DNA of 48,679 bases from Chloroflexota bacterium. Its GTDB lineage: Bacteria > Chloroflexota > Limnocylindria > QHBO01. The number at the start of each line of letters is the position of its first letter. The first letter of the stretch is position 1. Under the pieces are notes generated by a model. It was not told the DNA's origin. It saw nothing but the letters and a program-made list of their open reading frames with translations, and ran no database searches. Below are positions 2,589 to 48,679 of this stretch, piece after piece. Where the stretch lies: the NCBI GenBank assembly GCA_013816405.1, contig JACDEL010000010.1:1-48679 (forward strand). Direction: 5' to 3'. A program made the position numbers and the translations under genes.

Positions 2589-5500
2589 CGAATCGCGTCG
2601 GGGCAGATCTCACGGAATGGACAGTACCCGCAGCGGGTTGGAGACGGGTTCGCATCGAACCTGCCGGCGCGGATCCCATCGGCTGCTGTGGCGATCTGCA
2701 GCGCCGCGCCGGCCAGTCGCTTCGGGCTTGGCGAGCTGTGCCCCTCGATCCCCGACTCGAGGAAGTGGAGCACGAGGTCGCCCGGCGGACTCCCATGCTG
2801 CGCCTCCCATGCGGATCCGTAGATCGCCAGCTGGAGGGAATCGCGGGCGCGCCGCGACGCCGTGGCCGCATCGTGTACGTCGCTTGACTTGTAGTCGACG
2901 ATCGTGACCTGCCCGCTCGCGTCGGTATCCACGCGATCGTAGCGGCCACGGACGCGGTCGCGGCCTGACGGGACGGCGAATTCAAGCTCGACTGCCGTCG
3001 GGGTGGCGGGATCGGCCTGTTGCGCGTTCCAGAATCGCTCGAGGGTGTCGCGCGCCGCGTTCCGGCGAGCCTGTTCGTGGTCTCGAGTCAGGAAGCCGGT
3101 GGATTCCCAGGCGGCATCAAGCTCAGCATGGAGCTCCGCCAACGACATCGGCTGGCCGGCCATCTGACGCCGATGGAAGGCCTGCACGGCAGCGTGCAGC
3201 GCGCGTCCGTAGACCATCTGGTGCGACACGGGAGTGGGAATCCGAATGAGGTGGCCGAACCGGTACTTGGCCGGGCATTCGAGGTAGTCGCTGACCTGCC
3301 CGTAGCTCAGCGTCAGTGGCTTGTCGCCGAGGCTGGGCGGCGCCATGGTGGCGGGCTGTCGAACGGGGTGCTGGCTGCGCGCCAGGCGCTCGGCGACCGA
3401 CGGCCGCAGCGATTCGACCGGCGTGGCCGGCGCCAGGTCGAGCGCCTCGAGCACGAATTGGCTCATGCGCCGCGCGCTGCGTCCGCCGTAGTCCCGCGCC
3501 CAGGTGAGCACGAGCTCCTCCCTGGCGCGGGTCATGCCCACGTAGAAGAGCCGCCGCTCCTCGGCAAGGTGGTGGTCGCCCTCCGGCATCGCCTCCCGCA
3601 CCAGCTCGGCGGGAAACGGGAGCAGATCTCCGCGGGACCTTGTCGGGAAACGGTCATCGACCAGGCCCACCATGATCACTGTCAGGAATTCGAGCCCCTT
3701 GGCCCGATGGTAGGTCAGCACGTGGACAGCATCGCCATCGTCCGTCGCGACGTCGGCGGTCGAGGGGTCGTCTCCCGCCTCGATCAGCGTGTCGAGCTGA
3801 GCCACCAGGAACGGAAGGCGATCGTCGCGCAGCAGCGACGACTGCCGCCGCACGATCTCGAAGAAGCGTGCGACATTCGCGAGCCGCTCGTCGCCACTCT
3901 GGCGCGCCTCGGCGGCGAGGCGCCCGAGCCAGCCCGAGGAGGTGATGAAGTGGTAGAGGATCTCACCGGTGGTGCGCTCCGCGCTCATCCCGCGGTGTTG
4001 GTCGAGACTGGCAAGCAGCCGCGCGACGACCTCCAGCGGTCGCCGCCCGAACGGCGCCTGGCCGGGATCCGCGGCGGCCGAGCGGAACGCGGTCTCGAGG
4101 CTCGTGCGCCGTCTCGAGGCCGCGTTGAGGGCGAGCGTCACATCGCGCGGGTCGAGCCCGAACGTCTCCGAGGTGGCCAGGTCGTAGCAGCTGACCGAGT
4201 CCTCCGGATCGTTGACTGCCCGCAGGAAGCTGACCAGCAGACGAACCTCCGGCTGCCGGTACAGGCCGGCGGTCCCCGCGAAGCGCCACGGCACGCGCGC
4301 CATGTTCAGCGATCGCAAGATCGGGTCGGCGTCGCGATTGGTGCGGACCAAGATGGCGTGATCGCCCGCACGGCGGCCCGCCCGGAGCGAGGCGGCAATC
4401 CGCTCGGCAATAGAATCGGCCTCGTCGGATCCGGTGTCGAAGGCGAGCAGCTCGATGCTCGACTCATCCGCCCCGCTGCGGCGCCCGTAGGCCCGAGCCA
4501 CCAGCTGTTTGTCGATACCCTCGCGTGCCTCGAGCCGATCCGGGTCGTTGTGTTTGATGAGCCGATATGCGGCGTCCAGGATGGATTGCCGGCTCCGGAA
4601 GTTGTCCGTCAGCACGACGCTGGGCGCGGACGGGAAGGCCTGCCGGAAGCCGAGGATGTTCGAGACCGCGGCGCCGCGGAAGCGATAGATGCTCTGGTCA
4701 TCGTCACCCACCACGGTCAGGTTGGCGGTCGGCGATCCGGCCAGCAGCCTGACCAGCTCGAACTGAGCGTGATTCGTGTCCTGGAACTCGTCGACCAAGA
4801 TGTACCGATAGCGCTGCCGCTCCGCCTCCAGGATGGCCGGATGTTCGCGCAGCAGGCGGAGCGCCAGGCCCACCTGGTCCCCGAAGTCGATCCGGTCGGT
4901 GCGCCGCATCAGCTCCTCGTAGGCCGTGTAGCAGGCCGCCAGCTCGGCCTGCTGGCCCGCCGTCTCGCCGAGTGCCGCGTCATCAGGGGTCGCCGCGGCG
5001 GCGGCGGTCCACCGCGCGGCGAGGGCGCGGTATTCCGAGGGGGCGACATCCTCGTCCCTGGCTCGGCTGATGAGCGTCACCAGCGCATGCAGGAAGCGCG
5101 TCGGGTCCCCGAGCGGGCGGTATCGGTCCAGGGGGAGCTCGAACAGGTGCTCACGCAGGAAGATCACCTGCTCGGCTCGCGACAGGACGGTCGAACGGTC
5201 GGAGAGGCCGGCCCCCAGGCCGTGGTCGCGCAGGAGCCGATCTCCCCAGGCGTGGAACGTGCTGATGACGGTATCGGTGAATCCATACGGGACGAGACGG
5301 TCGACTCGTTCCGTCATCTCCAGCGCGGCCCGATCCGTGAAGGTGAGCGCAAGGATCTCCGACGGCTTCGCCCGCTTCTCCGCGATCAGCCAGGCGATGC
5401 GACGGGTGATGACCGTGGTCTTGCCGGTCCCGGCACCGGCCACGATCAGGAGTGGTCCGTCCCCGTGGGTCACTGCCTTGCGTTGGCGGGGCGTGAGGTC

Positions 5501-22430: not shown

Positions 22431-24725
22431 CTAGCTGGCGCCCCCCAGGAGCGAACGGAGCCGCCTGCGCAGCGTCAGCCACAGGAGCGGCAGCTGCAGC
22501 CGGCTCCAGGCACGCTCGATGCGTGCGATGACCTCCGACGACATGGACCGGCCGGAGTAGCTCTGCCAGACCTTGCCGTCGGCGATGTCGTGGATCTCGA
22601 CGCGGCGCCCCGGGATCTGCCGCTCCAGCCAGCCGGCGTATTCGTAGACGGTCTCCGAAGGTCGCTGCGCGACGCCGGCGCGATCCGCGGCGAAGGCGAG
22701 GCGTTGCCACTGCCGATCGCCGGGCGCCAGGAACCGGAACCGATGGCGACCGCGGAGCAGCCGCCACCCGGCGAAGGCCAGCAGCAGGATCAGCAGCACG
22801 ACGAAAATCCACCCGTTGTTGATGCGTGAAGCGTCGGTCGGGCGCTGGCCTCCCGGAGCAAACCCACCGTCGACCGGCTCGAACGATGGGAGACTCGAAA
22901 TGGTGCCAGTGTTCTCGTCCTCCGGGATGCGCCGCCCCGGATCGATCTGGCCGTTGGCCGGGGGAGGCGGCGGGACGACGCCCGTACCTGGCGCCCGCAG
23001 CACCGGCGCAATCGACTTGGTGGCCTCAAAGATCTGCCAGCCGTAGCCCGGGAAGAAGATCTCCGCCCAGGCGTGAGCGTTCTTGTCGCGGACCTGGTAG
23101 ACGCCCGGCTCGCTCCGCTCTCCCGGCGCGTAGCCGACCGCCACGCGCGCCGGCAGTCCCAACGTCCGCGCCATGACCGCCATGGTTGTGGCGAAGTACT
23201 CGCAGTAGCCGACCTGCCCATCGGGGTCGAACAGGAAGAAGTCGACCAGGTCCCGGTTCGGGTCCGACGGGAGCGCTGCCACGGTCTTGTAGGTGAAGCG
23301 CGAATCGGTCCGCAGGTAGTCGGCCAGGGCCCTGGCCTCGTGGTACGGGTCCGTGGCGCCGGCGGCGTTGACCACGCGGCGGGCCTCGTCGGCCGTGCGC
23401 TGCGTCGCTGCGGCGGTGCCGGCATAGGTGGCCAAGATCTCGGGTGGGTAGTCCGTCCCCGCCCCCACCAGCATCGCCTCGGTTGCGGTCGAGATGGCCG
23501 CGGTGATCTGGTAGCCCTTGCCCTCCTCCAGGACCACGCCGGACTGCAATGCGCCGAGCAGCGGCAGGCCGTTGGGCTCGTGAACCACGAGCGGGGCGAA
23601 GGCAGTCGTCGGGTAGCCGGGGGTGAACACGTTGCGCCCGGCGCTGCGCTGCACCTCGACCGTGACCGTCTCGATCGTGAATGAGGTCGGCGCCAGCGGA
23701 CGTTCAGGACTGTAGCCGGGGAAGATCCGGTCGCCGGCGGCGACCCGCCGGTTCGGGCCGTCGCTGCTGGACCAGCCGTGCCCGGTGTAGATGTCATAGG
23801 TGACGGTGCGCATGTAGTAGCCGCGCGTCGAGCCCACCGTCATGACGGGATCGTCTCTGCTGGACCAGCTACCGGCAACCCGGAAGGAGGAGCCGAACGA
23901 GGTCCCCTTGATGCGGGAGTCGGTGCCGGCGAGGCCGCCGAAGGCCCCCTCGAACTGGTTGCGTACATCCGACCACAGGCCGTCGAGATTGCTCCACACG
24001 CTGGTCAGCGGGGCCGCCACGGCGACGGTGGTCAGCACCCAGGCCAGGGCGATGCTGCCGGCGATGAACGTCACGCCGCTGCGCATGATCTGCCCCGGCA
24101 CATCCAGGTTCTCCTTGAGACGTCGGATGCGCCAGCTCTCCTCGCGATTGACGAGTGCGATGCGGAGCCACAGCAGCAGCGCGGCCAGCGAGAAGAGCAC
24201 GAGGTAGAGGAACAGGTCCGTGAACGTGGCGGACATGTTCGCGATGAGGGTGACGCCCACCAGCAGGATGCTGTCGAGGACCCGATGGTGCCGATACAGC
24301 GCGTACGCGGCGATGAAGGCGGTCACCCACATCAGCACACCGAGCCCGATGGCGTAGGGCGAAAGCTGGGGAGCGAAGCCACCGTCGACGATGATCCGGG
24401 TCCAGTCCAGCGCGTCACCGCGCAGCAGGATCAGCCGGCCCGCCTGGTCCAGCTGTGGGTGGTACTCGGCGCCGATCGTGAACAGCACGAGTCCGGCTCC
24501 CACAAACGCGGCGACGGGGAGCGTGACAGCGACGCTCAGTCGGGTCAGCCCGAGCAACGCCCCGAGCAGCGCGGCCACGACCGCGACCGGGAGCAAGTAG
24601 TCCATGTGGTTGACCCACGCCGCCCGCTGCAGGGACCACACGAGCGTGAGCAGCATCACGAGCAGGAGGGCCATGCTGGCCCAGCCCTCGCGAGGCCGCA
24701 GGAAGCGACGCAGCGGCTCAGGCAC
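22431..24725 (-). CDS. Membrane transglutaminase-like protein (DUF3488/TgpA type)
   Basis: A 764-residue protein starting at a GTG that overlaps the DUF58 stop. Several membrane helices fill the first 220 residues; an outside domain with a transglutaminase core follows: Cys in QVGYCEYFATTMAVMARTLG, then AVGYAPGE, and His in KNAHAWAEIFFPGYGWQIFEAT. A last membrane helix (WIFVVLLILLLAFAGWRLL) leads into a cytosolic DUF4129-like tail. The third catalytic position reads FEAT rather than DPT. With the MoxR ATPase and DUF58 protein it forms a widespread three-gene unit of unknown exact role, probably in cell-envelope maintenance. Confidence 0.88.
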   Translation of the reverse strand: MPEPLRRFLRPREGWASMALLLVMLLTLVWSLQRAAWVNHMDYLLPVAVVAALLGALLGLTRLSVAVTLPVAAFVGAGLVLFTIGAEYHPQLDQAGRLILLRGDALDWTRIIVDGGFAPQLSPYAIGLGVLMWVTAFIAAYALYRHHRVLDSILLVGVTLIANMSATFTDLFLYLVLFSLAALLLWLRIALVNREESWRIRRLKENLDVPGQIMRSGVTFIAGSIALAWVLTTVAVAAPLTSVWSNLDGLWSDVRNQFEGAFGGLAGTDSRIKGTSFGSSFRVAGSWSSRDDPVMTVGSTRGYYMRTVTYDIYTGHGWSSSDGPNRRVAAGDRIFPGYSPERPLAPTSFTIETVTVEVQRSAGRNVFTPGYPTTAFAPLVVHEPNGLPLLGALQSGVVLEEGKGYQITAAISTATEAMLVGAGTDYPPEILATYAGTAAATQRTADEARRVVNAAGATDPYHEARALADYLRTDSRFTYKTVAALPSDPNRDLVDFFLFDPDGQVGYCEYFATTMAVMARTLGLPARVAVGYAPGERSEPGVYQVRDKNAHAWAEIFFPGYGWQIFEATKSIAPVLRAPGTGVVPPPPPANGQIDPGRRIPEDENTGTISSLPSFEPVDGGFAPGGQRPTDASRINNGWIFVVLLILLLAFAGWRLLRGRHRFRFLAPGDRQWQRLAFAADRAGVAQRPSETVYEYAGWLERQIPGRRVEIHDIADGKVWQSYSGRSMSSEVIARIERAWSRLQLPLLWLTLRRRLRSLLGGAS

Positions 24726-25974
24726 GGGTGCGCTCCCGAATGGCCGGCGAGCGGGCCCCGATCGCTCGGCGCCCGAGCACGTTGGACAGGTCGTCTCCCG
24801 CCCGCAGGAGGTGGTGCGCGATGTCGTACTCGGCCAGGGCGTGCCGTATCGCCGCAAGCTCGGCACGGCTCTCGTCGTCATCCCTTCCCGCGAAGCTGAA
24901 GCGATCGAGCAGCACCACGATCGTGCCGATCCCTCGTCGCCGCAGAGCGGCCAGTGCTCGCACCCACTCGCGATCCGTTGAGCCGGTGACGATGCAGAGG
25001 GTCATGCCCCGCCGCAGCTGCGGGAGCGTCGAGACCACCATCTCGGCGAGTGGCTGCGAGCCATCGGCCTGCACGTTGGCAAGCAGGTTCAGGATCTTCT
25101 GCTCCACCCTCGTGCCCCGATCCGGGTTGAGGTGCTGCTGACGTCGCGAGCTGACGGTGATCCCCACCGAGCGGTTCTCGGCCAGGGTGTGGACCGCGAT
25201 CGAGGCGGCCGCGCTCACCGCCGTCTCGACCGACGACGACTCGGCTGGCCCGGCATGCGCGGCGCGCTGCAGGTCGAGCAGCAGCCAAAGGTCGGCGGCC
25301 TGCTCGAGGTCGAATTCCTTCACGATCAGCTCCCCGTGCCGCACGGAGCTGAGCCAGTGGATGCGGTTGATCGCGTCCCCATACACGTAAGGACGCACCG
25401 TGCTGACCAAAGGTGTCGCAGCCTCGTAGCGGCGCCGCGAGGGAGTGGTCCCGTCAACCGGCGAGGGGGGCAGGCGCCAGTGCGGCAGTGGATGGACGCG
25501 CGGGAAGACCATGATCCAGGTCGGCCGTCCCACCACCATCTCGCTGGAGAAGAGCCCGAACGGGTCACCGGTTCGAACGCGCAGCGCGCCCAGCCGGTAG
25601 CTGCCGCGACGCAGGAGCACCACCTTGGCGAGCCACTGCCGGCTCCCCCCGGCCTTCACCCCCACCACGCGGCCCGGCAATGGCGCGGGCAGGGTCGACT
25701 CGTTGGCAACCTCGACCCATGGCTTCGTCCAGCCGCTGTCGTTGTCGACCCGGTAGACCGCCTCGAGGGTGTCACCCACCTGGCTTCGCGGGTTGAGCAC
25801 GTGGTAGCCGGCGCGCAGCCCGCGCAGGCCGCGGCGGGCATACCAGCGCGAGGCGAGCAGCAGGGTCGCGAGGAGGTAGACCAGGAAGAAGAGGAAGTTG
25901 ATCCCGGTGCTGAACGCGGCAACGACCAGCGCCGTGCCGAAGAAGACGACCCGGAGCTGCCGTGACAGGCCCAT
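24718..25974 (-). CDS. DUF58 domain membrane protein
   Basis: A 418-residue protein with two N-terminal membrane helices (FFGTALVVAAFSTGINFLFFLVYLLATLLL), a beta-rich segment (YRVDNDSGWTKPWVEVANESTLP; GDPFGLF) and a von Willebrand A-like DUF58 core including YVYGDAINRIHWLSSVRHGELIVKEFD. In this family the core is thought to be a MIDAS-like adaptor acting with MoxR ATPases. It starts 8 bases after the moxR stop and its own stop overlaps the transglutaminase start. Confidence 0.88.
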   Translation of the reverse strand: MGLSRQLRVVFFGTALVVAAFSTGINFLFFLVYLLATLLLASRWYARRGLRGLRAGYHVLNPRSQVGDTLEAVYRVDNDSGWTKPWVEVANESTLPAPLPGRVVGVKAGGSRQWLAKVVLLRRGSYRLGALRVRTGDPFGLFSSEMVVGRPTWIMVFPRVHPLPHWRLPPSPVDGTTPSRRRYEAATPLVSTVRPYVYGDAINRIHWLSSVRHGELIVKEFDLEQAADLWLLLDLQRAAHAGPAESSSVETAVSAAASIAVHTLAENRSVGITVSSRRQQHLNPDRGTRVEQKILNLLANVQADGSQPLAEMVVSTLPQLRRGMTLCIVTGSTDREWVRALAALRRRGIGTIVVLLDRFSFAGRDDDESRAELAAIRHALAEYDIAHHLLRAGDDLSNVLGRRAIGARSPAIRERTRA

Positions 25975-25982
25975 GACAGTGC

Positions 25983-26948
25983 CTAGCGCGTGCCTGCGGT
26001 CGCGCTGCTGGTGGCTTCTGCGATCGGGACCTGGCCCAGGATCTCGCGAACGATGCCGTCCGGGTCAACCTCGCGCAGCGATGCCTGGCTCTTCACGATC
26101 AGCCGATGCCCAAGGACCGCCACGGCCAGGTGCTTGATGTCGTCGGGGATCACGTAGTCGCGCCCGTCGAGGGATGCCAGCGCCTGCCCGGCTCGGTACA
26201 GGTTGATGGAGCCGCGTGGCGAGGCACCGAGGTAGACGTCCGCATGCTCCCGGGTGGCGCCGGTCAGCCGCACGATGTACTCGGCAACTGCTTGGTCGAC
26301 GTAGATCTCCTTGACCGCCGCCTGCATCTCCCGCAGCTCTTCGAGGTCCATGACCTGCTGCAGCTCGTCGATCGGGTGCTTCCGCTTCTGCTCGTCCAGG
26401 ATGACGATCTCCTCCATCGCCTTCGGATAGCCGAGGCGCAGGCGAATCATGAAGCGGTCCAGCTGCGCCTCCGGCAGTGCGAAGGTGCCCTCGTATTCGA
26501 TCGGGTTCTGGGTGGCGATCACCAGGAACGGGGTGGGCATCAGGTGGCTGACGCCGTCGATCGTCGCCTGGCGCTCCTCCATGCATTCCAGCAGGGCGCT
26601 CTGGGTCTTCGGCGTGGCCCGGTTGATCTCATCGGCCAGCACCACCTGGGCCATGATCGGTCCAGGTCGGAACTCGAACTCCTGCGTCTTCTGGTTGAAG
26701 ATCGAGAGGCCCGTGACGTCCGACGGCAGGAGGTCCGGCGTGAACTGGATGCGACGGAATGTGCAGCCGATGCTTCGGCTGAGCGCCTTGGCCAGCATCG
26801 TCTTGCCGACGCCTGGCACATCCTCGATCAGGATGTGCCCCTCGCACAGCAGCGCCACCAGCGCCATCCGCACTTCCGCGTGCTTGCCGACGATGACGCG
26901 CTCGACATTGGCGACCACGCGCTCCGCCGACTCCTTGACACTCTTCAC
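25983..26948 (-). CDS. MoxR-family AAA+ ATPase
   Basis: A 321-residue ATPase beginning at GTG 26948 after GGGGAG; longer readings to 27002 have no ribosome binding site. Walker [10 protein letters not shown] (about 42-50), Walker [27 protein letters not shown], sensor 1 [26 protein letters not shown], and the lid-domain [18 protein letters not shown] are intact. MoxR ATPases work as chaperones that remodel or activate partner proteins carrying VWA/DUF58 domains. First gene of the moxR-DUF58-transglutaminase unit. Confidence 0.92.
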
Positions 26949-27042
26949 CGCGGAGACTCCCCTTGATGCGAGCCAGCGGGCGTGTCCGCCCGCGCCGAAC
27001 AATACCCCAGCGCGCCGTCCACCGGGGCATTGGCGCCTGGGT

Positions 27043-28590
27043 TCAGCCGCCGGTGCCGACGAGCTTCAGCCACTCGGCCATCACCGCCCCGCCGATCGGA
27101 GCGGCGTGCCCCGAGCCGCTTCCGCCTCCCTCGACGATGACCGCGACCGCGATCGAGGCCAGGGCGGCGTCCTGGGCGGGAGCGAAGCCGATGAACCACG
27201 AATGCGGCTTGAGGCCGGGACCGCGTTCCGCCGTACCGGTCTTGCCGGCCGTTTGAACCCCGGAGACGCCGAAGCGCGTCACGTCACCTGCCCCCGCGTA
27301 GAGCTTTCCGATCGGTCCGAGGACCGCGTCGATCATCGCCCGCCGGACCTGATCCGCAACGCCCGACGAGATCGCCGGGTTGCCCCGTCCGCCGCCGTAC
27401 GACTCGAGCACGCTGTCGGTTGGCCCGGCGGCCGGCGTTGCCGCGTGGCTGCGCAGGTCGCGCACCACGTACGGCTGGGGAACGGCACCGTGGTTGGCGA
27501 TGGTCGCGGCCATTAGGGCCATCTGCATCGGCGTGACGGAGACAGCTGCCTGCCCGAAGGCGGCGCTGGCGAGCTCCACCTCGTCCCGGAACGGAGCGCA
27601 GCCGCCATCGGCCCGTGCCGAGACATATGAAGGGTCGATTGGCAGGCCGCGGACATCCGAGCCGATGCGCAGCGCCTGGCAGAAGCCGAAGCGACGCGCA
27701 TAGTCGAGGTAGCGCGCGGCGCCGAGCTCCAGGCCGACGTGCGCGAAGTAGATGTTGCTGGACACCTGCAGAGCCGGCGACAGATCCCACAGCGCCGGTG
27801 CCACCGGCGCAAGGTCGTGCTCGCGGATCGTGAAGCCATTCACCACGAACCCTTCCACCTCCTCCCGGGGCTGATCCGTGAAGGTGGTCTGCGGCGTGAT
27901 CGCACCGGCGTCGAGGGCGGCCGACGCTGTCAGCACCTTCATGATCGAGCCCGGCGTGTAATGGCCCTGCCGGCTCCGATCCAGGAACGGATTGTCGGCA
28001 GCGCCTGCCACCGCGTCGAAGGCCGCCTGCGCCGTGGCCGGGTCACCGGAGAAGCCGGTCGCGTCGTAGGTGGGGTTGGAGACCATCGCCAGCACCGCCC
28101 CGGTGCGCGGGTCGATCGCCACGACCGCTCCGCGGTCGGCACCCAGCTGCGCGGCGGCGAAGTCCTGCAGGCGCTGGTCGATCGTGAGTGTCAGGTCGTG
28201 GGGCTCAGGCTGGCGGGCGAGGATGTCGTTCAGCAGGTCACGCAACGGATTCGGGTCAGTGCGGCCGGTGAGGACGTCATCCCAGGCCCGCTCCACGCCC
28301 GTCGCCCCGAAACGCAGGCTGGCGTACCCCAGCAGGTGCGTGAAGACTGGATCGGTATAGGTGCGCCGGCTGATCCCGTCCGTAACCACGCTCGACGCGA
28401 GCATGCGTCCCTGCGAGTCGAAGACCGAGCCGCGGGGCAGGCTGCGGCGCGTCGCGATGACCTGCGGGTTGTCCTGCCGCGTGGCGAGCGCCTGGGCGTC
28501 GAGCACCTGCCACCACACGAGCGCGCCTGAGACGCTGGCGAAGGCGAGCAGGAGGTACACGGACAGGCGACGGACGTTGGTTGCGATCAT
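27043..28590 (-). CDS. pbpA: Class B penicillin-binding protein (PbpA-like transpeptidase)
   Basis: A 515-residue protein with one N-terminal membrane anchor ([19 protein letters not shown]). Transpeptidase motifs are S215-I-M-K218, S277-S-N and K-T-G-T in [11 protein letters not shown]. The short N-terminal module with [21 protein letters not shown] fits actinobacterial PbpA-type proteins. It cross-links peptidoglycan outside the membrane with its cognate glycosyltransferase RodA/FtsW, whose gene overlaps it by 4 bases. No PASTA domains are present. Confidence 0.9.
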
Positions 28591-43182: not shown

Positions 43183-43266
43183 TGGTGGGCGAGGCGAGAT
43201 TCGAACTCGCACGTCTTGCGACACCAGCTCCTAAAGCTGGCGCGTCTGCCGTTCCGCCACTCGCCC
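43183..43266 (-). tRNA. tRNA-Leu (anticodon UAG), CCA encoded
   Basis: The acceptor stem GGGCGAG pairs with CTCGCCC; the anticodon arm is CCAGC-TTTAGGA-GCTGG with anticodon TAG; a long variable arm (TGTCGCAAGACGT) marks class II; the T arm is GCGAG-TTCGAAT-CTCGC; a discriminator A and encoded CCA follow. It lies directly beside the integrase, but its 5' end, not its 3' end, faces the element. Confidence 0.95.
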
Positions 43267-43289
43267 GATGTTTTGTGCTTGTGAGGCGC

Positions 43290-43318
43290 GTATTACTCGG
43301 TGATGGCCACTTGCACAA
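43290..43318 (-). promoter_or_regulatory. Promoter of tRNA-Leu (and probably tig-clpP)
   Basis: Minus-strand TTGTGC (43318-43313), a 17-base spacer and TAATAC (43295-43290) form a near-consensus sigma-70 promoter ending about 23 bases before the tRNA 5' end. Confidence 0.65.
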
Positions 43319-43337
43319 CGCATCAGACGCGTATAAC
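43311..43337 (+). promoter_or_regulatory. Putative integrase promoter overlapping the tRNA promoter
   Basis: TTGCAC (43311-43316), a short 15-base spacer and TATAAC (43332-43337) precede the integrase ATG by about 40 bases. Its -35 overlaps that of the opposing tRNA promoter in the palindrome-like TTGCACAA. Confidence 0.45.
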
Positions 43338-43377
43338 CTGTGCGGTGTCTTACGACCGCATTGGAGGGCATACCAGC

Positions 43378-44316
43378 ATGGCTAGGACCACCACCGAGGC
43401 CGCCATTGTAGGCGGGCCGACCATCGCCAGCACCCGCGACTTCTGGGTGCTCCACCTCAAGAGCGAAGGCCGCGCCGAGCGAACCATCAGCACGTATCTC
43501 AACGCCTTGCGTCGGCTCGACTCCTTCCTCGCCGACCGTGGCATGCCGCGCGAGCTGCGCGCCATCCGGCGCGAACACGTCGAGGCTTGGATCGCCGACA
43601 TGCTCCAGCGCAACCAGGCGGGCACGGTGTCGATCGCCTTCCGGTCGATGCGCCCCTTCTTCAAGTGGCTGGTCGACGAGGACGAGATCGAGCGCAACCC
43701 GATGGAGAAGATGAAGGCACCCGTTCCCCCGCTCAATCCACCATCGGTCCTCAATGACGAGGAGATCGCCCGACTGCTGGCCACCTCCAAAGGGACTGAC
43801 TTCATCAGCCGCAGGGACCTCGCCATCCTGAGCCTGATGCTCGACACCGGCATCCGTCGCGGTGAGGTGGCCGGCATGCGCGTCGACGACCTGAACCTCG
43901 CCCAGATGGTGGCCTTCATTGAGGCCTCCACCTCGAAGTCGCGGCGCGGGCGGGCGGTCGCGTTCGGTCCGACCACCGGCAAGGCCATCACCCGCTACCT
44001 GCGCCACCCGAAGGCGCCGCGTGTTCGCCTGGAGCCTCTGTGGCGCGCCAGGACGGGGCTGCCGCTAACCGGGAACGAGATCTATCACACCATCCGCCGT
44101 CGAGCCGCACAGGCGGGCATCCGGGTCCACCCCCATCAGCTCCGCCACACCTGGGCCAGCCGCATGCTGGGCAGCGGTCACTCCGAGGGTGACGTCATGG
44201 CGCTCGGAGGCTGGTCGAGCCGCGACATGCTGAACCGTTACGGCGCCAGCGCTGCCAGCGACCGGGCCATCGCCGCCTACCGCTCCCCCATCGAGTCGCT
44301 GAAGGCGCGGCGATGA
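43378..44316 (+). CDS. Tyrosine recombinase (integrase)
   Basis: A 312-residue integrase starting at ATG 43378 after GGAGG. The N-terminal SAM-like core-binding domain has TRDFWVLHLKSEGRAERTISTYLNAL. The catalytic domain has R160 (TGIRRGE), H253-x2-R256 (HPHQLRHTW), W279 (GGWSS) and nucleophile Y288 (DMLNRYGA). Length and motifs fit phage and island integrases of the XerC-like group. Probably catalyses integration beside or within tRNA-Leu. Its stop overlaps the next gene by ATGA. Confidence 0.93.
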   Translation: MARTTTEAAIVGGPTIASTRDFWVLHLKSEGRAERTISTYLNALRRLDSFLADRGMPRELRAIRREHVEAWIADMLQRNQAGTVSIAFRSMRPFFKWLVDEDEIERNPMEKMKAPVPPLNPPSVLNDEEIARLLATSKGTDFISRRDLAILSLMLDTGIRRGEVAGMRVDDLNLAQMVAFIEASTSKSRRGRAVAFGPTTGKAITRYLRHPKAPRVRLEPLWRARTGLPLTGNEIYHTIRRRAAQAGIRVHPHQLRHTWASRMLGSGHSEGDVMALGGWSSRDMLNRYGASAASDRAIAAYRSPIESLKARR

Positions 44317-44663
44317 AGGCGACAGAATGGCGCGCGCGGCGCACCGCGAACGGCAACGTCATATGCGGCCGGATGGTCGATGGCCAGCATCATTGCCAAG
44401 GCCAAATCGGTGCGGTGTGGGGCAGCTTCTTCTACTTCCTGCCCGGCATCGAAGAGGAGCCCGGCCGCCCCGGCTGGTGGAGACCTACCGCCCGATCGGC
44501 GCGACGGATTAGCGAGGGCCGGATGCCGCGTTGGCACCGTACCGTTTCGTCCTCCGACACTGGCGAGCGAATGCTCACGTGGAAGACCCCCTCGTTGCCC
44601 GCGCGCTATCCCTGCCCTCGCTGTCATTGCATAGCGGTGATCGACAGCGCTGTGCTACAGTAA
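44313..44663 (+). CDS. Element-borne small protein with zinc-ribbon-like C-terminus
   Basis: A 116-residue protein coupled to the integrase (ATGA). It has an early Cys-containing strand (NGNVICGRMVDGQHHCQGQIG) and a late CPRCHCIAV motif, so it may bind Zn. The middle (FFYFLPGIEEEPGRPGWWRP) is rich in aromatics. Many phage genomes carry a comparable small gene after the integrase, sometimes an excisionase, but no helix-turn-helix is visible here. Confidence 0.6.
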   Translation: MKATEWRARRTANGNVICGRMVDGQHHCQGQIGAVWGSFFYFLPGIEEEPGRPGWWRPTARSARRISEGRMPRWHRTVSSSDTGERMLTWKTPSLPARYPCPRCHCIAVIDSAVLQ

Positions 44664-44779
44664 GGAGCAACTGAAGAGCTGCCGGCGGCACACGCCGGAG
44701 TAGGTACGGAGCACGGCCCGACGGCCTGCCCCCTCGCTGTGAGAGCCAGGGACGGGGCAAGGCGAAAGGGACGTGCTCT
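44664..44779 (+). other. Structured leader before the second gene block of the element
   Basis: A hairpin CCGGCG-gcaca-CGCCGG (44682-44698) is followed by a longer one with arms TGCCCC and GGGGCA (about 44728-44761). A TACAGT hexamer near 44655 could be a -10 element. This could be a regulatory or terminator/antiterminator leader. Confidence 0.35.
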
Positions 44780-45034
44780 TTGGCATCTACCGACCGATCG
44801 CTTATCGCCAGGATCGCCGCCCATGAACGGTGGGCGCGCGAGCCTGATCGCAGCGCCGCCACTGCCGCGGCACGACAAGCCAACGCTGATCGCTACCTGA
44901 ACGCGGTTCGCGTGTTGCATCCGAGCCTGGCCGAGGGCGAGCTGCTGATCCGCGCGGCGAACCTTCGGTCAGCTGACTTCGCCAGGATGGCGCGGGCGCG
45001 GTGGGGCAAAAAGGCGGCCAGCGATGCCACCTAA
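44780..45034 (+). CDS. Small helical protein typical of phage-like elements
   Basis: An 84-residue protein beginning at TTG: IARIAAHERWAREPDRSAATAAARQA then RYLNAVRVLHPSLAEGELLIRAA and a basic end. The AHxRWA-x-x-PDRxAATA pattern is common in unnamed proteins of actinobacterial prophages and plasmids. DNA or RNA binding by the basic end is possible. The start lacks a strong ribosome binding site. Confidence 0.6.
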   Translation: MASTDRSLIARIAAHERWAREPDRSAATAAARQANADRYLNAVRVLHPSLAEGELLIRAANLRSADFARMARARWGKKAASDAT

Positions 45035-45121
45035 TGCCGAAAGGCGCCTCCCTGAAGGAAGCGCCTCCCAGACCCAGATGCGCACTGATCCTACACCCGT
45101 TGTTGCATCGTCGGTGGCATC

Positions 45122-46351
45122 GTGAGCTCCTACGACGCGGCCATCATCGACACGGCCATGATCGACCACCCGGACCTGCTTGAGCTGCCGCGCGGCGTAA
45201 GCTACCTCCACGTTGAGGCGCTTGTCTGGAGCAGGCTGCACCACACCGACGGCGAGATCCCGCGGCACATGCCCCGCCACTTCAGCGATGAGCCCGACGT
45301 GGAGGCCGCTGTGGCTGCCCTGGTCGCGGCCGGACGCTGGGAGATCACCCCGACCGGCTGGCGGATCGTTGACTTCCTGGACAGTCAGATGAGCGCCGAG
45401 CGGGTCGCGGAGAAGCGAGCCCTATCCCGCCAACGCTGGGACCGATTCATAGCTGGTGGAGGTCAACGCGTTAGCAAACGCGCTAGCAACGATTCTGACC
45501 TGACCCGACCTGACCTGACCCGAAAGGGGAGGAAGGGAGGTAGGGGCGCGGACGGATCGCGCGGAGCGCGCCCGGAGGGCGCTACCGCGCTCCCGCCGCG
45601 AGCAGGGAGAATCCCAACCGCTGACACGGAAGTCCTGGCCGGTATCCACGACGGCAAGCTGTGCGCCAGCTGCACCCTGCCCTTCTTAGAAGGTGGGGTC
45701 CACGCCGTGAAGGCTGAGGCCAGTGGCCGGTTCAAGTACTTCATGGTTCATGACGGCGGTTGTCCGATGCTCCCCGAATCCATCTCCGACGATGGCGAGT
45801 ATCGACGCGGCTGGTCGATATGCGACCTGTGCAGCTCCATGATGCCGGAGGTCCTGGTCACTGCTCCGACCGAGGGCGGCAGCCGCTTTTGTCTCGATGG
45901 TGACCCGCGCGGTTGTGGTGGGCAAGCGGCTTTCGTGCCGATCCCCGCGAAACCCTCAGCCTCACCCGGCTCCCTCGTGTTCAGCGATGAGGACGATGGA
46001 TCTACAGGTGGCGGCGGTTGCCTGATCTGCCACAAGTTCGTGGACATGCACGAGGGCATCAGTGGGCCGCATGGGCTGACACACCCCGACTGTGCCGAGC
46101 AGGCCAACCGCGAGCTGATCGCCGATCCGACCGCTCCCGCCATCGTCAAGAAGGCGGCGTCCAAGGCGCTCGAACACATGGGCCTCGAGCCTGCCAGCGC
46201 GAGCAGTATCCCGTGCAACAACTTCCGCGACCACCAGAGCAAGCATCGGCGCGTTGGCGAAGGTTGGACGTGCGACGCGTGCATCCCGGTGGTAGCCGCT
46301 GAGGCGCCGTCGCACCCACGGCCACGTCTGGTCGAGCAGGCGTCGGCATGA
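45122..46351 (+). CDS. Phage replication-initiator-like protein with zinc-binding C-terminal modules
   Basis: A 409-residue protein. Residues 1-95 look like the winged-helix start of phage replisome-organiser proteins (HPDLLELPRGVSYLHVEALV; DVEAAVAALVAAGRWEITPTGWRIVDF). A charged linker contains DLTRPDLTRKGRKGG, encoded by short direct repeats. The C-terminal half has three cysteine groups (CASCTLPF, CDLCSSMMP...CLDGDPRGCGG, CLICHKF...C, and CDACIP) typical of Zn modules. Start GTG 45122. Probably acts in element replication; the repeats inside it could serve as origin sequence. Confidence 0.6.
   Translation: MSSYDAAIIDTAMIDHPDLLELPRGVSYLHVEALVWSRLHHTDGEIPRHMPRHFSDEPDVEAAVAALVAAGRWEITPTGWRIVDFLDSQMSAERVAEKRALSRQRWDRFIAGGGQRVSKRASNDSDLTRPDLTRKGRKGGRGADGSRGARPEGATALPPRAGRIPTADTEVLAGIHDGKLCASCTLPFLEGGVHAVKAEASGRFKYFMVHDGGCPMLPESISDDGEYRRGWSICDLCSSMMPEVLVTAPTEGGSRFCLDGDPRGCGGQAAFVPIPAKPSASPGSLVFSDEDDGSTGGGGCLICHKFVDMHEGISGPHGLTHPDCAEQANRELIADPTAPAIVKKAASKALEHMGLEPASASSIPCNNFRDHQSKHRRVGEGWTCDACIPVVAAEAPSHPRPRLVEQASA
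45465..45522 (+). repeat. Iteron-like direct repeats inside the replication-like gene
   Basis: Two adjacent 12-base units, AACGCGTTAGCA and AACGCGCTAGCA (45465-45488), are followed by five pentamers TGACC/CGACC (45496-45520). Such clusters often lie at phage or plasmid origins within initiator genes. They encode the linker of the protein. Confidence 0.55.
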
Positions 46352-46557
46352 GCCGTCGTCGCCGTCGCCATCCGCACCGCGTCCGCTGGCGCCCGCGCAA
46401 GCGCAACGAGCGCAGGGAACCGCTGGCCCGGGTAGGGGTCGAGGTGGGTATGCCATCGCAAACTAGCCGCGCCGAGCGCCCCGGATACCCGTGTCTACCG
46501 CGCTCAAAGTATCTCTGTCCGATCTCTGAATCAAAAGGGCACCCCGATGACCGCTAA
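46348..46557 (+). CDS. Tiny Arg-rich protein
   Basis: A 69-residue frame beginning SRRRRRHPHRVRWRPRKRNE with ATGA overlap to the preceding gene, and overlapping the start of the small terminase by 11 bases. The strong basic charge suggests nucleic-acid binding. The context supports it, but no homology is recognised and it could be a chance frame. Confidence 0.4.
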   Translation: MSRRRRRHPHRVRWRPRKRNERREPLARVGVEVGMPSQTSRAERPGYPCLPRSKYLCPISESKGHPDDR

Positions 46558-46879
46558 TCCGAAGCACCTGACCCTGCCGGCCCGTCGCCTGTACGACGCG
46601 GTCCTGGAGCTGTACGAGTTGGCCGAGCACGATCGCGCCGTGCTGGTCAAAAGCCTAGAAGCCTGGGACCGAAGCGAAGAGGCGCGCGAGCTGATCGCCG
46701 CCGATGGCCTGCTCGTCACGAGCCGACTCGGGGAGCTGAAGGCGCATCCCGCCATCGCCATCGAACGCGACTCACGCCATGCCTTCCTGGCCGGTTTGAA
46801 GCAGTTGGGCCTCGACTACGAGCCGACGCCCGCCCAGGCCCGCACCGCCGCGGCACGCAAGGCACGGTGGTCGGCATGA
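46547..46879 (+). CDS. P27-family phage terminase small subunit
   Basis: A 110-residue protein matching the P27-type TerS pattern: LPARRLYDAVLELYELAEHD, LEAWDRSEEARELIAADGLLVT, then LKAHPAIAIERDSRHAFLAGLKQLGLD. It recognises the DNA packaging site for the large terminase. A large terminase would normally follow, but two small unknown genes and a protease come next. Confidence 0.8.
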   Translation: MTANPKHLTLPARRLYDAVLELYELAEHDRAVLVKSLEAWDRSEEARELIAADGLLVTSRLGELKAHPAIAIERDSRHAFLAGLKQLGLDYEPTPAQARTAAARKARWSA

Positions 46880-47265
46880 ACCGCCGAAGGCGTGCGATTC
46901 ATGCGTCAACCGCCGTCGCCGACTGGCAGCGTGAAGCCCACTTCCAGACCGATGGCTCAATTCGTACCGGCCTCGGGATCAGGCCCGAGGGTTGGTGGCG
47001 GTACGAGTCCGATCGGCCCGACCTGGCCGACGACGCCACCCTCGATGTGTATGTTCACCTGCGCGAAGCGAAGCACCTGGAGCGCGCTGCAGAGCGGCTC
47101 CGCTACCTGGCACAGCATCACCAACTCACCACCGACGAGCTGAAGGCGATCGCGGACGGCACGGGGGCGTGCTTCGAGTGGCGCCAGGCCGTGCTGGCCG
47201 GCCAACTACCGTCGCCCTGGATGGCGACGCTATCGAGTGGGCGCAGGTCGCGCTTACCTACCTGA
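46876..47265 (+). CDS. Element protein of unknown function
   Basis: A 129-residue protein coupled to the small terminase by ATGA. It begins with a basic stretch (NRRRRAIHAST), followed by a Trp-containing segment (GWWRYESDRPDLADD) and helices (LREAKHLERAAERLRYLAQH, TTDELKAIADG). It occupies the usual position of the large terminase but is far too short and lacks Walker motifs. Function unknown. Confidence 0.6.
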   Translation: MNRRRRAIHASTAVADWQREAHFQTDGSIRTGLGIRPEGWWRYESDRPDLADDATLDVYVHLREAKHLERAAERLRYLAQHHQLTTDELKAIADGTGACFEWRQAVLAGQLPSPWMATLSSGRRSRLPT

Positions 47266-47333
47266 AAAGGAGCCCTTCCCCTGGCAGACACGTTCCCCAC
47301 CACCTTCCGTCCTAACGAAAAAAGGAGATCCCG

Positions 47334-47798
47334 ATGACCACTTCACGACCCCTCGCATGGCCCGACGACCCCGACTCCGCAGAGGCGGGCAAGGCGGCAA
47401 TGCTCGACGCGGAGCGCCGTCTGCACCTGCGGATGATGGGCGATTCGCATTACCGCAATCGGCAGCCGACCGAGGGCGATCTGCTCGAATACTCGCGCAT
47501 GGACAGCGAAGAGGCCCAGGCGAGATCGGCGTACCGCAGCGTCGAGGGACAGATGATCGCATTGTCGAACTCGCCCGGCGAAGGCGCCCGCCTGGCCGGG
47601 CCGACATTCACCTTCCGCGCCGAGCAGGCCGATCTCGTCGGGAAGCTTGGTCGCGCCACGGTCGCTCACGAAGAGGAGTACGGGCGCCTGGCGGCCGAGC
47701 GGTTGAGGTTAATGGACCTCGAGGCCGACGTCCGGACCCGGAACAACCAGAGGCGCGCCGAGATGGCCCGCGTCCAGAATTTGCGGGGCGCGCCATGA
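47334..47798 (+). CDS. Helical element protein of unknown function
   Basis: A 154-residue protein after AAAAAAGGAG with ATG at 47334. It is almost wholly helical with coiled-coil potential (SAEAGKAAMLDAERRLHLR; HEEEYGRLAAERLRLMDLEADV). Stop overlaps the prohead protease start (ATGA). It may be a scaffold or head assembly factor given its position, but this is inference. Confidence 0.6.
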   Translation: MTTSRPLAWPDDPDSAEAGKAAMLDAERRLHLRMMGDSHYRNRQPTEGDLLEYSRMDSEEAQARSAYRSVEGQMIALSNSPGEGARLAGPTFTFRAEQADLVGKLGRATVAHEEEYGRLAAERLRLMDLEADVRTRNNQRRAEMARVQNLRGAP

Positions 47799-48310
47799 CC
47801 CTGCTTCCACCTCCCGAGATGGTGCGGCCCTTCGATGGCATGAGCAGCGCCGGGGTCCTGGCCGCCGCCGGCGGTCCTGCTGCCCTTCGGTGGGCCGTCA
47901 AGTCGGCCGGTGCCGACGCGGTGTGCGGGCTTGCGATCCCTTTCTTCGGTCGCGACTCGTATGGCGAGTACTTCACGCCGGAGACGGCCTTCGGCCTGGT
48001 GCTCGGCGTGCCCTTGCTTTGGGAACATGGACAGGATCCGCAAATCAAGTCGACCGTCTTGGGCGAGGTCAGCGACGCCGTCAAGCTCGATGACGAGGGC
48101 CTCTGGGTCGAAGTTCAGATGCGCAAACACCACGCCTACGTCGAGCGCATAAAGCGTCTGCTAGCCGCGGGCAAGCTGTCGTTCTCAAGCGCCGCGTTGG
48201 CGGGGCTGTGGCGCAAAGAGGAGGGCGGGCGCGTCGCCGACTGGCCTCTCGCCGAGGTCTCCCTCACCCAGACGCCGGCCAACGCGCGTGCCACGGTCTA
48301 CCGGCCGTGA
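47795..48310 (+). CDS. HK97-type prohead protease
   Basis: A 171-residue protein following the family pattern: CGLAIPFFGRDSYGEYFTPE, then VPLLWEHGQDP with the catalytic His, DEGLWVEVQMRKHHAYVERI, and KLSFSSAALAGLW with the catalytic Ser, then WPLAEVSLTQTPANARA. It matures phage heads by cleaving the capsid scaffold. Start is the ATG overlapping the previous gene; longer frames upstream run through other genes. A major capsid gene would be expected to the right. Confidence 0.88.
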   Translation: MTLLPPPEMVRPFDGMSSAGVLAAAGGPAALRWAVKSAGADAVCGLAIPFFGRDSYGEYFTPETAFGLVLGVPLLWEHGQDPQIKSTVLGEVSDAVKLDDEGLWVEVQMRKHHAYVERIKRLLAAGKLSFSSAALAGLWRKEEGGRVADWPLAEVSLTQTPANARATVYRP

Positions 48311-48416
48311 TTGATCCAGGCGGCGGCCCACGGCGTTGGATTCCCGGCGCCTGATTGCCCCCTGGGCCGGTGTGGGTTCTCCGCTGCGCCGGCCCAGGGT
48401 TCTAGGAACGACGCAC

Positions 48417-48608
48417 ATGACAGAGGTAAGGACCGCCGCTGATCGCGCCAGCGGGACGATCAAGAGCGTCCAGGGCACCATCGCCGGGCTCCAGGCATCG
48501 GCCATGTCGCGTGCCGAGTTCGCCCGCCTGCTGCGCGATGGTCCGCGGGACACCCCGGAGAAGCGCCGCGCCCGCGAGCGTTGGCTCGACAAGGTGTCCC
48601 CGCGATGA
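48417..48608 (+). CDS. Small element protein after the protease
   Basis: A 63-residue protein starting at ATG 48417 (MTEVRTAADRASGTIKSVQG), helical, with a charged C-terminus (DTPEKRRARERWLDK). The 100 bases between it and the protease gene hold no feature. Possible capsid decoration or scaffold-related role is speculative. Confidence 0.5.
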   Translation: MTEVRTAADRASGTIKSVQGTIAGLQASAMSRAEFARLLRDGPRDTPEKRRARERWLDKVSPR

Positions 48609-48614
48609 GATCAG

Positions 48615-48650
48615 CCGGGCGGGGCGCGTTCCCCCCGCGCCTTCGCCCGG
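48615..48650 (+). other. Strong GC-rich hairpin after the last small gene
   Basis: Outer arms CCGGGCG and CGCCCGG enclose inner arms GGCGCG and CGCGCC with a loop of TTCCCCC. It has no T-run after it, so it may be an RNA-processing or translation element or a Rho-independent-like pause site rather than a standard terminator. Confidence 0.45.
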
Positions 48651-48679
48651 TGCCGAACCTAAAGCGCGACGCGGAGTAG

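Follow-up and report, generated by a model that had tools for sequence, protein, structure and literature searches.

The right end of the window (the whole 48,679-nucleotide stretch of a Chloroflexota contig that was analysed) holds the left part of a 9.2-kb integrative element that carries a small terminase (TerS) and a prohead protease. We consider it moderately likely that this element is, or until recently was, a PICI-like phage satellite that redirects packaging. It was previously noted that the two genes are separated by two short unknown genes, with no large terminase or portal between them, and this arrangement was borne out by Pfam, PHROG and codon scores. The same note took the region for a compact integrative element with a reduced phage set. 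Indeed, an integrase, a Rep-like gene, TerS and the protease were found, and a second attachment site closes the element. The satellite reading is supported by both attachment sites, TerS and protease matches above the Pfam cut-offs, coding frames, stand-alone proteases that recur elsewhere, and TerS islands in two other genomes. Against it stand the lack of a helper with a specific link, a full gene order that was seen once, and a second protease copy in the same genome that is a fragment.

Attachment sites and the contig join

The host draft genome (G000) comprises 2.5 Mb in 102 contigs and is 95% complete. Contig C73 carries the element region at its right end and stops at window position 48679, so that the view to the right was blocked for the earlier note. 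To find the second attachment site, the genome was searched with the tRNA region. An exact copy of the 41-bp core was found on contig C87 (positions 3841-3881 of its reverse complement). The core corresponds to the 5′ half of tRNA-Leu (43227-43266), from the anticodon loop to the 5′ end. Beyond attR, the DNA shared 85% identity with the sequence to the right of this tRNA site in G002, a near-complete genome of a relative in the genus. The matching cores and the G002-like flank beyond attR indicate that C73 and C87 are the two ends of one insertion, which measures 9207 bp with both cores included. The element thus has discrete attachment sites, with an exact core at each end and orthologous chromosome outside.

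Since the core is the 5′ half of the tRNA, the DNA adjoining the 5′ end of the working tRNA is element DNA, and the element thus supplies both the 5′ half and the upstream region of the gene. On the same strand, the tRNA-Leu gene is followed by those for trigger factor, clpP and clpX.

C73 ends in 127 bases that are also the exact start of reverse-complemented C87. The same 127-mer also ends reverse-complemented C33, and with two incoming contigs the assembly graph is ambiguous at this point. On sequence alone, a segment could have been lost at such a branching k-mer. An unbinned, capsid-bearing segment between C73 and C87 would make the element a larger prophage or a capsid-forming satellite. 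We regard this as improbable. The large terminase and portal are already absent from their normal place, the unbroken stretch upstream of the protease, which argues against the loss of a complete head module. In addition, C73 and C87 bear matching att sites, the only Phage_capsid match of the bin is on another contig (C3), and two further proteases, on contig C54 of the same genome and in G005, are also not followed by a capsid gene.

C33 itself appears to carry a second island (L007/L008, about 22900-28428 of the reverse complement), which seems to start at a truncated tRNA of which only the 3′ half is present, about 130 kb from the window site in the G002 order. The inner end of this island carries the 127-mer of the window end, hence the two islands share recombined DNA. 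The draft contains 14 Phage_integrase matches, which suggests many integrated islands in this genome. We also observed a short repeat, GGCGATCGGTAGCGTGCAGGCGACC, that recurs in island and intergenic DNA of G000 and G002 (C87, C33, C54 and the G002 island L025), often with GACGTTGACGGCGCGAG upstream of it. It is perhaps a promoter-like or mobile repeat.

Genes of the element

Table 1. Positions in the window of the tRNA gene, attachment core, element genes and contig overlap
Feature	Position	Strand	Remarks
tRNA-Leu, anticodon tag	43183..43266	-	ARAGORN; Rfam tRNA 58 bits
attL core, 41 bp	43227..43267	.	exact copy at G000:C87 8963-9003 (attR)
Tyrosine integrase, 312 aa	43378..44316	+	Phage_integrase E 2.2e-28; PHROG 1; 63% identical to the same-site G002 integrase
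116-aa ORF, doubtful gene	44313..44663	+	no family match; codon score below zero
84-aa gene	44780..45034	+	conserved in the G002 island (66%)
Rep-like replication initiation protein, 409 aa	45122..46351	+	PHROG 2447 E 6e-12; 52% identical over 168 aa to a G126 gene
Small terminase (TerS), P27/Terminase_4 type, 110 aa	46547..46879	+	Pfam; PHROG 83; codon score 0.41
p6, 132 aa	46867..47265	+	overlaps the TerS end; codon score favours the frame
p7, 154 aa	47334..47798	+	predicted all-helical; strong Shine-Dalgarno; ATGA overlap with the protease
Stand-alone HK97-type prohead protease (Peptidase_S78), 171 aa	47795..48310	+	Pfam; PHROG 80; His78, Ser131, Glu154 kept
63-aa gene	48417..48608	+	codon score 0.32; 3′ end repeated at the C33 end
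Contig-end overlap, 127 bases	48553..48679	.	joins reverse-complemented C87; shared with C33; 3.7 kb more of C87 to attR

Codon scores trained on the host genes in the window favoured the named frame for every gene but the 116-aa ORF, and the named frame scored best for the integrase, TerS, p6, p7, the protease and the 63-aa gene. TerS matched Pfam Terminase_4 (E 7.5e-8; 33.1 bits against a cut-off of 24.7) and the terminase small subunit family PHROG 83 (E 1.3e-7). It also matched NCBIfam P27 with an E of 2.9e-10, yet below the NCBIfam cut-off. For p6 and p7, no Pfam or PHROG match was obtained at E 1.

In the unbroken sequence from 46547 to 48310, these two short genes alone lie between TerS and the protease, and the 63-aa gene alone lies between the protease and the cargo. 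In the C87 part, coding-like ORFs were found for a cupin (E 4e-11), for three small proteins and, on the minus strand, for a protein of 174 aa. The cargo of this right-hand 3.7 kb is thus small and not of phage type, and no phage structural gene could be recognised there. Three cargo proteins compared with defence models gave no match. Apart from the integrase and the Rep-like protein, no coding ORF of the joined element has the size of a large terminase, a portal or a usual major capsid protein. No excisionase, phage-type repressor or AlpA-like gene was recognised in the element by Pfam and PHROG searches.

Terminase_6N and TerL_ATPase profiles found no match in the genome. These negatives say little, because a 499-aa large-terminase-like ORF on contig C3 has no Pfam match either.

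An ordinary tailed prophage would carry a large terminase and portal between TerS and the protease, and capsid and tail genes after it. No large terminase, portal, capsid or tail gene was found in the assembled element, subject to the C73-C87 join. The earlier note had named a large terminase, portal and full tail module to the right as the finding that would turn the element into an ordinary prophage. We looked for such a module in the joined element and found attR instead. The lack of these genes, together with the second attachment site, speaks against an ordinary prophage, provided that nothing is missing at the branching join.

The stand-alone prohead protease and p7

The protease matched Peptidase_S78 (E 8.7e-6; 26.4 bits against a cut-off of 21) and PHROG 80 (E 3.2e-7). 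His78, Ser131 and Glu154 were invariant across 30 aligned homologues and, judged by the family, are the predicted catalytic residues. The AlphaFold model was confident over roughly residues 35-165. Its top match among solved structures was the T4 capsid assembly protease gp21, with a match probability of 0.96 but an E of only 0.05.

Stand-alone proteases with no capsid-sized phage-type gene behind them were found three times: in the element (171 aa), on C54 (169 aa) and in G005 (174 aa), a Chloroflexota MAG of the same family (JAPSGM010000025.1) in which the upstream part is cut by the contig end. Outside G000, G005 has the only relative of the solitary form. The C54 copy consists of the protease and part of p7 and is thus a fragment; the C-terminal 43 aa of p7 are 67% identical there. 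Both copies in G000 stop at the same place, right after the catalytic domain, and the G005 protein is similar. The C73-C54 pair showed an omega of 0.44 and in-frame indels, which is compatible with function having been kept for at least some of the divergence, although a single pair does not tell where that divergence took place.

Phage relatives of the protease looked different. An alignment-based scan of IMG/VR yielded 51 relatives. Those with ORFs uncut by contig ends were 195-1063 aa long and continued in a long C-terminal extension or were soon followed by a long ORF. Upstream, they mostly had long ORFs, as in portal/terminase modules, a head-module call that is based on ORF size and position and not on a capsid model. 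In six other Chloroflexota genomes outside the class, the protease match lay within open frames of 298-803 aa. Within the class, G126 has a complete terminase-portal-protease-capsid order, judged by ORF size. Single-protein scans found no close relatives of the protease in genomes and viral contigs, or of Rep and TerS in viral contigs, and no relatives of the protease were found in plasmid records.

These data bear on a serious rival to the satellite reading, namely that the element is a decayed tailed prophage in tRNA-Leu. In that case, deletions would have removed the large terminase, portal, capsid and tail of the prophage, with integrase, Rep, TerS and protease left as remnants next to acquired cargo. 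Integrase, Rep and TerS are all phage-type, in phage relatives the protease belongs to complete head modules, C54 has no more than a fragment, and the full gene order was found in a single case. However, all main frames are intact and have host-like codon usage, the active-site residues are kept, and omega between the C73 and C54 copies is 0.44. Moreover, independent random deletions would not readily give the same protease end on C73 and C54 and a similar form in G005, and TerS islands without a capsid recur in the class. We therefore consider decay rather unlikely, if still to be taken seriously.

Head proteases normally work inside their own prohead, which makes the protease the odd part of the element. 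It may process the prohead of a helper, it may disturb helper maturation, or it may be a relic. The p7 gene overlaps the protease start by four bases, and its product was predicted, at modest confidence, to be all-helical. These features would suit a scaffold-like partner of the protease. No confident fold match was obtained that would make p7 a known scaffold.

Related islands, candidate helper and known satellites

TerS homologues were found in islands of two other genomes of the class. In G091, the island has a tyrosine integrase. In G126 (L057; G126:C16, 4881-12696), a stretch of 8 kb holds TerS together with a serine recombinase and an HNH gene and, 3 kb further on, a DarG antitoxin (E 3e-82). 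No capsid or large terminase was found among the surrounding ORFs of either island. The G126 island is a possible satellite with defence cargo.

Other islands share the integration site. G002 carries a 12-kb island (L025; G002:C4:440000-459999) at the same tRNA-Leu, with a different gene at the Rep position and other cargo, including a kelch-like repeat protein. It gave no TerS or protease match. In G035, from another family of the class, a related integrase lies beside the same half-site, again with no TerS. Judged by these sequences, the integrase family is linked to this tRNA-Leu site. The islands look like modular integrative elements that can carry various loads, among them the TerS-protease block.

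The islands also raise the idea that the element is a non-phage genomic island, not carried in particles, that took up TerS and protease for some other purpose, for example to interfere with incoming phages. The other cargo at tRNA-Leu in G002 and G035 and the antitoxin of the G126 island point in this direction. Nevertheless, a block that combines integrase, Rep-like gene and TerS is what an element needs to be replicated and packaged, and no defence model matched the three cargo proteins compared. We thus find this idea very improbable.

The earlier note had suggested a look for helper prophages with related heads, and none was found. Contig C3 of the same bin (L035, L036 and L126; 36,955 bp; no overlapping contig ends found) carries the gene set of a tailed phage, with the large-terminase-like ORF, Phage_portal, an S78 protease, Phage_capsid and an extended tail module. 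The putative TerS of C3 is unrelated to that of the element, and the two share no 15-mer (about 2 expected by chance). C3 may be a helper or a bystander, and shows no specific link to the element.

Among known systems, SaPI-type PICIs with their own TerS (PMC6092414, PMC10690885) are similar in having a site-specific integrase, a replication gene, TerS and a size of about 9 kb, and in lacking a large terminase, portal and tail. In contrast to them, the element has no recognised master repressor, excisionase or capsid-size gene. It adds a stand-alone prohead protease and a Chloroflexota host. PICIs are further characterised (PMC6092414) by a unique attachment site, genes exclusive to PICIs, phage-dependent induction through a master repressor and a conserved organisation of the replication origin. 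The element has a specific site, the tRNA-Leu half-site that the related integrases of G002 and G035 also use. With capsid-forming PICIs, as far as the definition quoted in PMC10690885 goes, it shares the head maturation protease and TerS, but not the major capsid, portal, connectors and large terminase. The phiRv1/phiRv2-like elements (PMC3986857) are similar in integrase, tRNA site (phiRv2) and size (9.3 and 10.8 kb), and their relative phiBN42_1 also has a prohead protease. In phiBN42_1, however, a major capsid gene follows the protease (PMC3986857). Since the assembled element has no capsid gene, it is not phiRv1-like. Hence, of the earlier proposal, the satellite life style stands as the best explanation, whereas the likeness to phiRv1/phiRv2 and to capsid-carrying satellites does not. 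PICMI satellites of Vibrionaceae (PMC10803314) are likewise minimal, with integrase and replication gene and no capsid genes. They lie beside fis and measure about 6 kb, and the text of that paper mentions neither a terminase nor a protease, both of which the element has.

By analogy with these systems, the element probably spreads in particles borrowed from a helper phage. Upon helper infection or induction, the integrase would excise the element, and the Rep-like protein would drive its replication. The element's TerS would then join the large terminase of the helper and steer packaging to satellite DNA in helper heads. These steps follow the established biology of PICIs with their own TerS (PMC6092414, PMC10690885), and a review takes terminase genes to suggest mobilisation by phages (PMC11389934). 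The coupled p7-protease pair might act on the helper prohead, either by processing an altered assembly product or by disturbing head maturation.

More doubtful is the further proposal of a Chloroflexota satellite family that has its own TerS, a helical protein and a stand-alone protease but no capsid, and that uses proteolysis, instead of a capsid or a known size-determining gene, to re-process or re-size the helper prohead. A satellite with a prohead protease and without a capsid would be a head-hijacking layout not found in the satellite papers searched. A two-term full-text search of the literature found no phage satellites described in Chloroflexota, a phylum known mostly from uncultured members. 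What is new would lie in the host phylum and in a layout of TerS plus protease with no capsid, and the TerS and att site of the element could be of use in the search for helper phages of uncultured hosts.
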